Shown here: in pieces, positions 33,401 to 39,400 of the stretch | Layout: each line of letters opens with the position of its first letter | How positions within the stretch are numbered: the first letter of the stretch is position 1 | From: Blastomussa wellsi | Lineage: Eukaryota; Cnidaria; Anthozoa; Scleractinia; Plerogyridae | Direction: 5' to 3' | DNA length: 64,000 nt | NCBI GenBank assembly: GCA_947652115.1 | Contig: OX393570.1 | Span: 14,964,464 to 15,028,463 of the forward strand | Notes under the pieces: generated by a model | Told to the model about the DNA's origin: nothing | Database searches by the model: none | What the model saw: the letters and a program-made list of their open reading frames with translations, nothing else | Position numbers and translations under genes: made by a program

Positions 33401-36400
33401 TTGGTTCTTGCCAGGCCCTTCCAAAATAAACTTATTTGGTTCAGCTTTGCGTGTGTTGTTTCTGTTGTGGAGTGGAGACAAAATATGTTATTTCTGACGA
33501 GTGAGCGAGCGAACAAGGCTGAAATAACTATTTTGTCGGCACGGGATACAACAAGGCCTGGGTTCCAGGCGGGGGCATCATGGGTAATTGTGTAGGGGTA
33601 TAAAAGACAGAGTATAACACGTGGTTGTCATCTAGGCTTCAGAACCAACCGCGTACTTTTCGTTTCGTTTAGTTTAACTTGTTCTTGTTTAGTATTTTTC
33701 TTTTGCAGATGCCTTCAGTCTGACAGGATCGACTGTTCCTTTTTCTATTGATTTTTTACTTTTGTAAAGCCTTCGTAGGATGGGCTAATAATCACTTGGA
33801 GCATGAGCCTTGGTTCCTACCCAGATTTCCTGCACATTTTTTCCCCACAGGGGTTTTTTCTGGCAGGTTTTTTCTGGCCTCCGTGTTAACCGCATTTGTT
33901 TTGTTAGCGGTTGCTCAGCTCTACTAGGTTTACTTTATGATTTTTTATTGTATTTCTATGTACTTCTTTGGTCTTTTTTATATTTTTTGTTCATGTTTCC
34001 CCAGCCCGAGAGCTTATTTGGGAACGCAGGCCTAATGGACAATCTTTAGTATAAGACGGCCTGTCTAGCTTATAGTCTAATGTAATGTAGGAGTTGTTGT
34101 TCCCCAGCCTAACTGGCAGCCTAACTGGCACTGAGCTTGAGAGCTTATTTGGGGAAGTAGGTCAAGTGCATGACCTACAGTATGAGATGGCCTGTTTAGC
34201 TTATATTCTTGTGTAATGTCGGAGTTGTTGTTCCCCAGCCTATCTGGCACTATAAGCTTGAGAGCTTATTAGGGGAAGTAGCCCATGTAGATCGTGATTT
34301 AATAATAGAGTTGCGGTTTAAGCCTTTCTGATACTAAGCCTGTGTGCTTGGAGATCTAGTTTGTAGTTTTATGAAGGAGTTGTTATGTAGTTTCTAAGTA
34401 GTTATAGATATACTGTTTGGGTTGGTTCTTGCCAGGCCCTTCCAAAATAAACTTATTTGGTTCAGCTTTGCGTGTGTTGTTTCTGTTGTGGAGTGGAGAC
34501 AAAATATAGTAATCTTACAATATACAGAATATCACCAAGAGGAAATTTTGCCATGGCCAACTAAACATTTCACGCCCAGATGTATGGGGCGCCGAACCAG
34601 TCAATATTCCCTACATTTTTATAGGGTCTGTTGGACTTTTCATATGGTCAACTCGACTTTTTATATGGTCAACTTCACTTTTTATCTGCTCAACTCGACT
34701 TTTTATATGGTCAACGAATCACTTTTGATATGGTCAACTCGACTTTTTATATGGTCAACTAATCACTTTTGATATGGTCAACTCCACTTTTTATATGGTC
34801 AACTCTATTCTTTATATGGTCAAGTATATATTTTAATTATGGTCAACTTTCGAATTTTTAAAGACGACCAGAATGCAATGCGCCAAAACTCAAGCGTCTC
34901 TGCTTTTTGAGGACACAGCAAGAATTATGGCTCGAGACCCTGCAAGAGAACGCAACGAACACGGGTTGTTTTTATTCTTTGAGAATTTTAAATTACTGCT
35001 TTCGACAATATCCTCTTTCGAAGAAGCCGAAAGATGCAATAACTTGCTTTTTGAGGACATTGACCAGGCTGAGGAACGATTGATTACTGCTGCAGAGACC
35101 ATCCATTTACTCCTCTCAGATATTGAAAATAACCACGATTTAACTGATGTCACATCAATCCTGAATCTGACTCTGAGTAAAGTCAGGAACTTGAGTGATG
35201 AGCTACAGCAATGCAGAAGCGAAATGCCAGACTTCAGCTCTATTGGCGAAAGTGCATACAGTAGCCCAACTGATTCCAGAAGAACAAATACGTTTCTTAA
35301 GGGAAATGCATTTTCCATGGAAAAAGATAGCCAACTTACTTGGTGTAAGTGAAAGCACCCTTAGAAGGAGGAGATTGATGTATGGCATGACCGACCTCGA
35401 AGGGTCAAGTTGGACTCAGGTTTCAGATTCTGATTTGAATAGAATTGTTCAAGAAATCCAAGATCTAACACCCAATATCGGACAGGCCAGACTGCTTGGT
35501 GCTCTGAGAAGTAGGGGCCTAAACATTCAACGATGGCGAGTTAGAAATTGTCTGCGAACCCTTGATCCTGTTGGTACCGTTTTACGCTGGCTTTCGGCAA
35601 TTTACAGAAGAAAGTACAATGTTCCAACTCCGAACGCCCTCTGGCACATTGATAGTAATCACAAACTTATAAGGTGGAGGCTTATTACTCATGTGTGTGT
35701 CGATGGATATTCCCGAATTATAATTTATGCGCACTGCTGCAATAACAATAAAGCAGATACAGTATTGGAACAATTTGTTGGAGGCGTCAACAGTTATGGA
35801 TTACCCTCTAGAGTAAGAAGCGACTATGGCATGGAAAATTTCAAAGTGGCAAAATTTATGTTAGAACAAAGAGGTTGTGATAGAGGCAGTATTATAACTG
35901 GTAGTTCTGTGCACAACTGTCGTGTGGAGAGGGCCCACAGAGATATTTACTCAGGGGTACTTTGCTTCTTTGCAAGAACATTTGCTCACTTGGAGGATAA
36001 TGGCCTCCTTGATCCACTCAAGGAGATGCACTTATTTGCACTACATTACACATTCATCCCAAGGATAAATAAGTGCTTACAGGAATTTAAAAGGCAGTGG
36101 GAAAACCACCCCCTATCTACCGAAGGGAATCGTTCTCCCCTTCAGCTGTATACAGCTGGGATGCTTGAAAATGAACACTCTGGATATGCGGCAGTTGCAA
36201 GTGTGTTTGATGCTGGTAGCATGCACGATTACGGATTTGATCCCTCAGGCCCATTTCCCATGGAAGAAGAAGACTATCAGGTAGTAGTTCCGGATACAAC
36301 TGTCCAACTTTCTGATCAGCAGATTGCATTATTGGAAAATCAGTGTAACCCTTTGCAAGAAAATGACAGAAGTGGTGAAAATACATACTTAGAATGTTTA

Positions 36401-39400
36401 AGAATTCTGTGTTCTTTCATTTAAAGGATAAAGACTGGGCTGAATGTGACTACGAACTTATAGTTTGTACAAAAAGGAAGCAAAGACTAGATACTATAAT
36501 CTGCCACAAAACAAAACAGTCTTTATTAGGATACTATATCACTATAACTTTTATGTTTACAATAGAGATTGTTTGTTCGAAAACCCAACGAAAGATATGT
36601 AACGTTGTTTCAGTCTTTATTACATTATATGACTGTGTTGACATTCAGAAAAAAAAGATGTTTTTAATGATCTCTCCTGTATTTCAAGCAAAATGCTGTA
36701 ACCCTGATTTAACTTAACAGTTAACTCAACAGTGCTACTCAAAGTAAACTAGCAGTCTGAGAAACGTAATCGACACAGATAGTAACTTTATGGCATGTGA
36801 TAATTCTTCACACGATGTTCATCTCCCAACTATCTGAATTCAAAATGGCCATGAATTCTTCTCTAAGCTCACAAAAGCTCGCATATGTGCTAGGCACCTC
36901 CAGAGTGCAACCACAAGTGTGAGAAATTGGTCTTCTCTGAAGACCTTCAGTATCTGTGAACGATATTGTCAAACTGTCAGTGACAATAACATCAGCTGTT
37001 GTAGTAAATCCAGGGTTTTCATTAAAATTTGAAGTAGGCGGATGGTAGAAGTGAAGTAGGCGGCAGTGAAAATTAAGGGGCCGTAAGGCCCCGTCCTCTA
37101 GGGGGGTCTGGGGGCATGCTCACCCAGAAAATTTTGAAATCTAGAAGCTCGGAAATGCCATTTCCAGCATTCTAGGCACCAAAATGAGTACAAGAGACGA
37201 GGAATTTTTCTTAACATCAAAAACGGTTTCTTTTTTTAATTTTTCTACATGATTTATAGACTGGAAAGGAGGTCCTGTAAATTTAAAACCACTATAATAG
37301 CAGACACACTATATATAGTGAAAAAACTGGATGCTATTTAAACCATTCAGGATACAATAAAATATCGGCTATCATAATTTTACTTAAAATATGTATTAAC
37401 ATATTGAATATCACTTTTTTGACAATAGCAACTATTATTTAAACCATTTAAAGGCCTATGATTTAAATGAACTGAAAACAAACAGTGGTACGTGTAACTT
37501 GTGAAGAGAAATAATCGTAATTGAGAATGGCGAAAGTTGCACGGTTTATATGAATTTAAGTTATTCAGTTCTTAAGATTTGCGTTGATTCACGGTCTTTC
37601 AAGTCTTCTTAAATAGAAAATCAAAGACATTTATGCTCACTTACCTGCATCCGGAAGCGGCCGTGCTTTCTTCGAAAAATATGCTAATATATTTCCATCG
37701 CCCACGGCGCGCTTTCTCTCAGCCATTTCAAAAGCACATGGAAAACCGGAAGAGAAAACAGCGTGTAAGCGAGGCATCTTTGCCACCAGTCCTTCTCGCC
37801 TCTTTAATCAAACATGGCGGACTGCGAATGGCCAAAGTGTCGATTGCCGTTGATATAGGTTGAAAAGACGTTACTTACAATCATCCATAGCGAAATTATG
37901 AGACATGATATAAAAGTAAGGACTTTTTATTTACGAGTTCTTTTGTTTTTATTACTCTAAAACAATATTAAAAGCTTTCAAATGAAAAAGTAAACCTTGA
38001 GAGTTCGAATGGCAAGAGTAAGCAAAAGTAGGCGGCGCTGATATCGAAAGTAGCCGCCGGAGTTCGCCGGTTGCCGGCTTCTAATGAAAACCCTGTAAAT
38101 CTCAAAAAAGTTGTAAGCTTTGCTTCATCAAGCCCTCTAATAAATCTCTTAAGGTGAGAAATAGTCTCACTCTCAGCTACTGTACCTGGATTGGCTTTGA
38201 GTAGGGCAATTACTTTCACATTGGTTGGTATGATGGAGGAATACAATTGATCTAAAGAACTTACATCTGGAAAATAGATTTTAAGGCGGCTGAGAATTGG
38301 CTGCCAACAATCACTCACATATTGGGGTTTTTGCACAATCTCCTTGTGGGCAACCTCTTTAATGGTTGCTGCTATGTTGCTGGGTACGACTTTCCGTTTA
38401 CAATCAAATGTTGACAAAAAGTCAAGCATCTCCTCACTGTCACAAGCAATAGTATTAGCCAAACAGCCCTCTATAAGCTTGGTTTCAGATTGTGAAACAT
38501 AATGCTTGAAAGAATCTTGCAACATTTCACAGGTGATACTCCCCTCCGTCATACCCAGTGGTCGTTTTCTACTCGATGTTCCCCCACGAGCGTTGTAGCT
38601 GGGAAATCGCTGTGCAAGCTCTGCTGCAACCAACCCCAAGCCTGAAGACGGGATAGAACAAGTCGAAGAGCTGTTGGTAGCCGTTAACGCTGCTACATTT
38701 CGAATGTCATTTCTTTGCAGGTTTCCAATGGCCTCGAGGGCCTGCTTAGCAATGGCACACGCCGAAGAAATTTGCTGCACGTCTTCTTCGTTACGGCTGG
38801 CAGCCATCTTTGATTGAGTTTGGGCGCATTGCATTCTGGTCACATTAAAAATTCAAAAGTTGACCATATAAAAAGCGGAGTTGACCATATCAAAAGTGAT
38901 TAGTTGACCATATAAAAAGTCGAGTTGACCATATCAAAAGTGTGAAGTTGACCATCTCAAAAGTCGAGTTGAGCAGATAAAAAGTGAAGTTGACCATATA
39001 AAAAGTCGAGTTGACCATATGAAAGTCCAACAGATCCTATAAAAATGTAGGGAATATTGACTGGTTCGGCGCCCCATACAGATGAGTTTAAATAAAGTTG
39101 TGTATGTATGTATGTACAAGGACAAATTGCATAATTAACAAAAATGTACCGTACAAATATGCTTTCATTCACTCGAACAAGGAATATAATACAATCGCTT
39201 TCGATTACAGCTTGTTAACTGATCAAAATCATCCGCAATAAATGCTTGGACACAACTACAATCGCCAAAGACAATTCTTCGAAAATTTAATTTTGAAGGA
39301 TCGCAGGCTCGCATACGAATTTCGCCAACTTTGTTTTCTTTTTCTGTATTGCAGTTTTCAATATCGCAATTCTTCCGGGAAAGCAATCTAACTCAACTGG

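Follow-up and report, generated by a model that had tools for sequence, protein, structure and literature searches.

Why does a DNA transposon carry a gene for a ubiquitin ligase? The question is raised by an element in the genome of the stony coral Blastomussa wellsi (assembly GCA_947652115.1, contig OX393570.1, positions 14,964,464 to 15,028,463 of the forward strand). Within this stretch of 64,000 nucleotides, here termed the window and used for all coordinates given without a contig, terminal inverted repeats (TIRs) enclose two convergent genes, as a first-pass annotation of the window had already described: one encodes an integrase-like DDE transposase and the other a protein ending in the C-lobe of a HECT domain. 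Judged from comparison with related copies and families, the second gene is probably a conserved accessory HECT E3 ligase of IS3EU-type transposons, which would act on host factors. The tail-to-tail pair recurs in many transposon families of the genome, which suggests that the ligase serves the transposon as one of its functional components.

The element spans exactly 34583 to 39078 (4,496 bp) and ends in TATGG..CCATA, or in the longer form TATGGGG..CCCCATA (full termini TATGGGGCGCC..GGCGCCCCATA). It is flanked by identical 6-bp target-site duplications (TSDs), CAGATG at 34577-34582 and at 39079-39084. The boundaries first proposed, 34581 and 39080, were 2 bp too wide on each side: they took in the last two bases of the left TSD (TG) and the first two of the right one (CA). 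The left TIR (34583..34893, plus strand, beginning TATGGGGCGCCG) contains subterminal repeats and the first ATG of the transposase gene, and the right TIR (38814..39078, minus strand) contains subterminal repeats and the first ATG of the HECT gene at 38834. There are nine copies of the motif TATGGTCAA in the left TIR and six in the right, with a spacing of mostly about 21 bp. The arms of the inverted repeat match over 59 nt at 98% and over 167 nt at 96%, homology extends over about 310 bp on the left and about 265 bp on the right, and a 31-base repeat motif gave seven matches against none in 100 shuffles. The inverted repeats are thus real and far beyond chance, as had been claimed. The sequence ATGCAATGCGCC at the inner end of each TIR holds the first ATG of either gene, so that both predicted proteins can begin with MQCA[KQ]TQ.

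The transposase gene (34873..36424, plus strand, first ATG at 34873 or 34927) includes an rva_4 integrase core (PF24764, 35615..36184, plus strand) recognised by Pfam with an E-value of 5.8e-81. The catalytic codons on the same strand are those for Asp at 35651-35653, Asp at 35822-35824 and Glu at 35927-35929, i.e. D153, D210 and E245 of the ORF as first described (D255, D312 and E347 in P0048 numbering), and this triad is invariant in an alignment of twelve rows including the window copy, which bears out the D-D-E assignment. In Pfam scans of four transposases rva_4 was above and rve below the cut-off, HTH_21 was found below the cut-off in two, and no zinc-binding integrase domain was reported.

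The HECT assignment is weak on the window copy alone, in which a full HECT domain is no longer present (PF00632, E 0.035, below the cut-off), and becomes clear through its relatives. Among the close relatives scanned, all four that extend to the C-terminus exceed the PF00632 cut-off (E 2.2e-9 to 3.4e-6). For one close relative (P0001) the AlphaFold2 (AF2) model predicts a bilobal HECT fold that is complete and, when searched against the PDB, matches HUWE1, UBR5 and the NEDD4 group; identities to known HECT structures are 10-21%, and profile matches were obtained to HUWE1 (E 5.3e-4) and TOM1 (E 6.2e-4). The catalytic cysteine, in the motif [HRA][TA]C, aligns with that of HUWE1 and is kept in 16 of the 16 rows reaching it in an alignment of 17. 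The C-lobe with its TC motif is therefore confirmed, and the wording "ligase fragment" of the first-pass annotation is correct for the window copy only, since this copy carries the remnant of a full HECT gene. The N-terminal HECT open reading frames (ORFs) gave nothing above the Pfam cut-off. For P0171, a relative from Desmophyllum, AF2 modelled the N-terminal region with low confidence (block means of 56-70 over residues 101-200), and an impression of a ubiquitin-like fold in this region is therefore not claimed.

On the minus strand of the window, a remnant of HECT exon 1 from the N-terminal region (38548..38834) is fused in frame, via a deletion of about 1.7 kb, to a remnant of exon 2 (38096..38547) covering the later N-lobe and the start of the C-lobe. 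The C-lobe is split by a nested insert of 1,085 bp (CAGGGTTTTCATTA..TAATGAAAACCCTG, 37011..38095, TSD TAAATC), likely another DNA transposon derivative, and its end with the motif HTC lies at 36811..37010 (minus strand, Cys codon 36913-36915, stop codon 36808-36810). In the transposase gene, 38 bp present in sister copies have been deleted at about 35281, which shifts the reading frame. Both genes of the window copy are therefore inactivated. These three lesions had been overlooked in the first annotation. To the left of the element, at 34003-34288, are found three degenerate repeat units (AGCTTGAGAGCTTATTTGGGGAAGTAGG) with start-to-start distances of 131 and 121 bp.

Other copies of the family were searched for in the own genome (G000; 367,841,132 bases in 124 contigs) using the left TIR as DNA query. 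Five copies are represented by both of their ends among the 17 matches, and two matches belong to a diverged relic (L015) in which similarity is limited to TIR pieces and the 5' transposase region and which has no protein-level match to three queries. It had been proposed that the pairing would fall if other copies lacked the HECT gene or if this gene ran beyond the TIRs as a host gene; instead both genes are present in all five TIR-bounded copies, and the HECT gene has its first ATG within the right TIR, at the inner end. In three of the five the gene pair within TIRs is accompanied by an exact 6-bp TSD (CAGATG for the window copy on contig C16, GATACA on C9 and AATTTC on C20). C9 has an uninterrupted transposase ORF of 541 codons from stop to stop, and C4 and C20 have an uninterrupted HECT exon 2 of 495 codons. 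The window copy measures 4.5 kb and those of C15 and C9 5.2-5.7 kb, and besides nested inserts the ORFs are those for transposase and HECT. The copies on C4 and C20 are enlarged by nested mobile elements. As labelled by eye, the C4 copy (L011/L012) contains an apparent tyrosine-recombinase retroelement and the C20 copy (L013/L014) ORFs resembling other DNA transposases.

In order to define HECT loci, P0001 was compared to the whole genome, which yielded 85 matches merged into 74 loci, and transposase loci were defined by a search with PF24764, in which 150 of 448 candidates were scored. An rva_4 core is present within 6 kb of at least 35 of the 74 HECT loci, and the two genes converge in all 35 pairs; 300 random placements yielded 0.49 pairs on average and never more than 4. 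The figure of 35 is a lower bound, because a convergent transposase ORF is also present in L030 and L031, which the count treated as unpaired. Seen from the other side, 36 of the 150 scored rva_4 loci have a HECT match within 6 kb. The remaining 114 have none within this distance or a HECT gene too diverged to be found, and the HECT gene is therefore not part of every rva_4 element of this genome; the elements without it may carry another accessory gene or none. Loci with a long rva_4 ORF and without HECT within 6 kb include C23:8289974-8290543, C23:10832188-10832757 and C9:15744788-15745357. At C1:20375646-20391577 seven rva_4 fragments, each containing a single in-frame TAG, form a tandem array in which they are spaced by about 2.4 kb and in one case by 3.4 kb.

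A strict test for TIRs plus a 6-bp TSD around the pair was applied to 20 further loci and was positive in five: L022 (ACATTG), L023 (GATATT), L024 (ATTATG), L037 (TTGAAC) and L034 (TAGAGT). The same test on ten base-shuffled loci gave no match. Together with the window family these loci uphold the view of a selfish element with its own ubiquitin ligase gene. Both ORFs are uninterrupted in L022, L023 and L024 (657 and 410 codons). At the boundary of the copy on the transposase side, TACGG begins the end in L025-L029, L032, L033 and L041; a TAYGG end was recognised by a looser pattern in L030, L031 and L038, that of L030 being close to the copy boundary, and none was found in L036. One family ends in TACGATGG, which is TA..TA yet not TAYGG. 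A self-inverted-repeat search of 15 loci found nothing. Within the HECT family of L025, L039 and L040, L039 has a stretch of 5,000 bp in common with the other two; the limits of this stretch are no evidence of a shorter element, because it ends exactly where L039 is masked.

Selection and inheritance were analysed in a cross-family set of ten rows representing nine HECT families with identities of 21-73%. The window family is represented by the HECT gene of L011 and the transposase of L009, three ORFs of the N-terminal exon (445, 474 and 287 aa) were left out of the set, and the trees do not include L037, whose HECT matches that of L022 at every aligned position. The catalytic cysteine and the DDE triad are each kept in ten of ten rows, and the threonine preceding the cysteine in nine. 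The HECT proteins of L030 and L038 are 73-74% identical, while their transposases are about 26% identical; over 324 codons the two HECT genes differ at a proportion of 0.82 of synonymous sites (pS, saturated) and 0.158 of nonsynonymous sites (pN). The HECT gene is under strong purifying selection. Thirteen pairs were compared in all. The pN/pS ratios, 0.19-0.48 in five deep HECT comparisons and 0.31-0.54 in six between deeply separated transposases, can serve at most as upper bounds because pS is saturated, and two close pairs (dN/dS, the corresponding rate ratio, 0.61 and 0.53) are uninformative on selection. The same applies to the recent copies on C4 and C20, whose HECT exons 2 differ in no synonymous and six nonsynonymous codons.

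Co-divergence of HECT and transposase was not found (Mantel r 0.18, 792 of 5000 permutations, not significant), and exchange between lineages was therefore tested. The transposase tree is divided into two deep lineages, the window family with L034 and L038 on one side and L022, L025, L028, L030, L032 and L036 on the other (support 100/100). Across this divide the HECT tree groups L030 with L038 (support 100/100), and L025 and L032 are long branches outside this pair. A transposase tree constrained to unite L030 with L038 was rejected (p-AU, from the approximately unbiased test, 0.00044), as was a HECT tree constrained to unite the window family, L034 and L038 (p-AU 1.7e-27); both are nominal values, weakened by the fact that the groups were named after identities and trees had been seen. 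HECT genes have moved between the two deep transposase lineages.

A number of observations, including the non-significant Mantel correlation, weigh against a conserved ligase module of IS3EU-type elements. In the window family no copy out of five is intact in both genes, the C4 copy has no matching TSD and the C15 copy has lost its left tip. In the whole genome no rva_4 core was scored within 6 kb of 39 of the 74 HECT loci, 114 of 150 scored rva_4 loci are without a HECT match as described, and the strict TIR/TSD test was empty in 15 of 20 loci, several of which have one end outside the stretch or masked. As to the protein, four of 13 relatives are without the cysteine (P0195 has HTG; P0170, P0171 and P0206 end differently), none of nine relatives passes the Pfam HECT cut-off (six match below it, three not at all), and out of five HECT ORFs of other families three pass, one matches below the cut-off and that of L022 (657 aa) has no match. 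Finally, the placement of the element with IS3EU/GingerRoot is based on its ends, TSD and Pfam matches.

If the conserved ligase is indeed a functional part of the element, the TIRs would act as paired promoters from which both genes are expressed, and the rva_4 DDE transposase would mobilise the element by cut and paste. The HECT ligase would load ubiquitin from a host E2 and pass it to some target of importance for spread, the main target probably being a host factor common to these elements and involved in silencing, chromatin, repair or checkpoint control. A host target is likelier than one particular transposase, because one HECT lineage pairs with transposases that are about 26% identical. 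The same pair, with HECTs 73-74% identical, and the lack of a significant Mantel correlation speak against a ligase acting mainly on its own transposase or strand-transfer complex, by extraction after integration, turnover or dose limitation in a manner resembling the action of ClpX on MuA in phage Mu. The fixed tail-to-tail pairing and the start sequence common to both TIRs suggest coordinated dosage and, with the cysteine kept in all ten rows, are what such a role would lead one to expect; overall we consider it rather unlikely.

Transposons do capture host genes, and the HECT gene could be a passively carried passenger with no role in transposition. The broken HECT gene of the window and the 114 rva_4 loci without HECT match agree with this, while the cysteine kept across nine families, some pairs of which are 21-28% identical, the low pN of 0.158 at saturated synonymous change and a layout constant in 35 of 35 pairs do not; a passive passenger is disfavoured and, in our estimate, improbable. 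HECT genes are also common in animals, and the 39 HECT loci without a scored transposase nearby could be taken to indicate a host gene next to which transposases occur by chance or by insertion preference. Such an origin is contradicted for the window family, for the families of L022, L023, L024 and L037 and for that of L034, where the HECT gene is found inside TIRs with exact TSDs (three of five window-family copies and five of 20 loci of other families), and chance would have given 0.49 pairs against the 35 observed; it can hardly be entertained for the pairing as a whole.

The comparison with known systems given here relies on the accessible passages of the papers cited. IS3EU/GingerRoot transposons have TA..TA termini (TAYGG..CCRTA in the rust-fungus set), a 6-bp TSD and an integrase-like DDE transposase (PMC10045372, PMC12730594). 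The element has the same termini and TSD and likewise an integrase-like DDE transposase without the HHCC zinc domain, while its partner gene encodes a HECT ubiquitin ligase; in the TET-carrying fungal members an alpha-kinase gene is located opposite to the transposase (PMC12730594). The terms HECT and ubiquitin do not occur in the available texts of these two papers. In Ginger1 an integrase-like transposase is fused to an OTU or Ulp1 protease domain and the TSD is of 4 bp; its authors suggest that the ubiquitin pathway takes part in transposition (PMC2836005). The likeness lies in the tie of an integrase-like transposase to the ubiquitin/SUMO pathway, and the difference in a separate gene for a predicted ubiquitin-adding ligase in place of a fused protease. 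Membership of Ginger1 itself was rejected on the TSD of 6 bp and the lack of HHCC, OTU and Ulp1 domains in the window ORF and P0048 as scanned with Pfam.

The TET/JBP genes of fungal transposons, which are thought to counteract silencing, are host-type enzymes found across transposon lineages and transferred between them (PMC12730594). Carriage by several lineages and exchange are shared with the HECT gene, TET/JBP being a fungal methylcytosine dioxygenase and the HECT product a protein ligase encoded in an animal genome. Entons/Intons and Styx, which descend from EnSpm or IS3EU ancestors, are multi-gene elements of fungi (PMC3520738, PMC10853768), with five to six proteins and four ORFs, respectively, as compared to two genes in an animal; no ubiquitin ligase is named in the passages on these elements, and "ubiquitin" is absent from the Styx main text as available (PMC10853768). 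According to the accessible part of a 2012 meeting report, cut-and-paste DNA transposons usually encode just one or two conserved proteins and diverse DNA transposons carry host-acquired proteins, HECT not being named there (PMC3520738). With known HECT E3 ligases the protein shares the bilobal fold, the C-terminal position and the cysteine, and differs by being transposon-encoded and of low sequence identity. Polintons/Mavericks are long and carry many genes including a DNA polymerase and a capsid; they were rejected on the 4.5-kb size and the transposase and HECT ORFs of the window family, no search having been aimed at polymerase or capsid genes. Our literature search, to which most subscription papers and Repbase were outside scope, found no description of a transposon-borne HECT gene. 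The transposon-borne HECT ligase may be new; accessory genes in IS3EU-type elements are already known in fungi.

Outside this genome, related HECT-like proteins are seen in corals, hemichordates, a sea cucumber and a fish. Among the rows listed, equal contig sizes noted by eye (454,774 for HECT P0002 and transposase P0050; 2,164,145 for P0257 and P0054) suggest, short of proof, that both genes lie on the same contig; a third coincidence (P0003/P0064, 1,521 bp) concerns a size too short for both side by side. The exon-1 ORFs P0029 and P0030 of other assemblies are preceded by translated TIR. One IMG/VR scan with the HECT alignment showed no relative in a viral carrier, and one such scan does not exclude it.

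On the widest interpretation, which is possible and is put forward tentatively, these elements would form a large and ancient group of animal transposons with HECT as an exchangeable anti-host module removing or altering a host silencing or repair factor, and could be a source of the HECT-like proteins of the animals just mentioned. For annotators this means caution, since some genes of corals and other animals labelled "HECT domain-containing" may be transposon genes. A conserved and exchangeable HECT gene in nine families of a single genome indicates that control of protein stability or signalling belongs to the lifestyle of these elements, with a ligase complementing the protease domains of Ginger1, and it would offer a concrete route to a host factor which transposons must overcome in early-branching animals.

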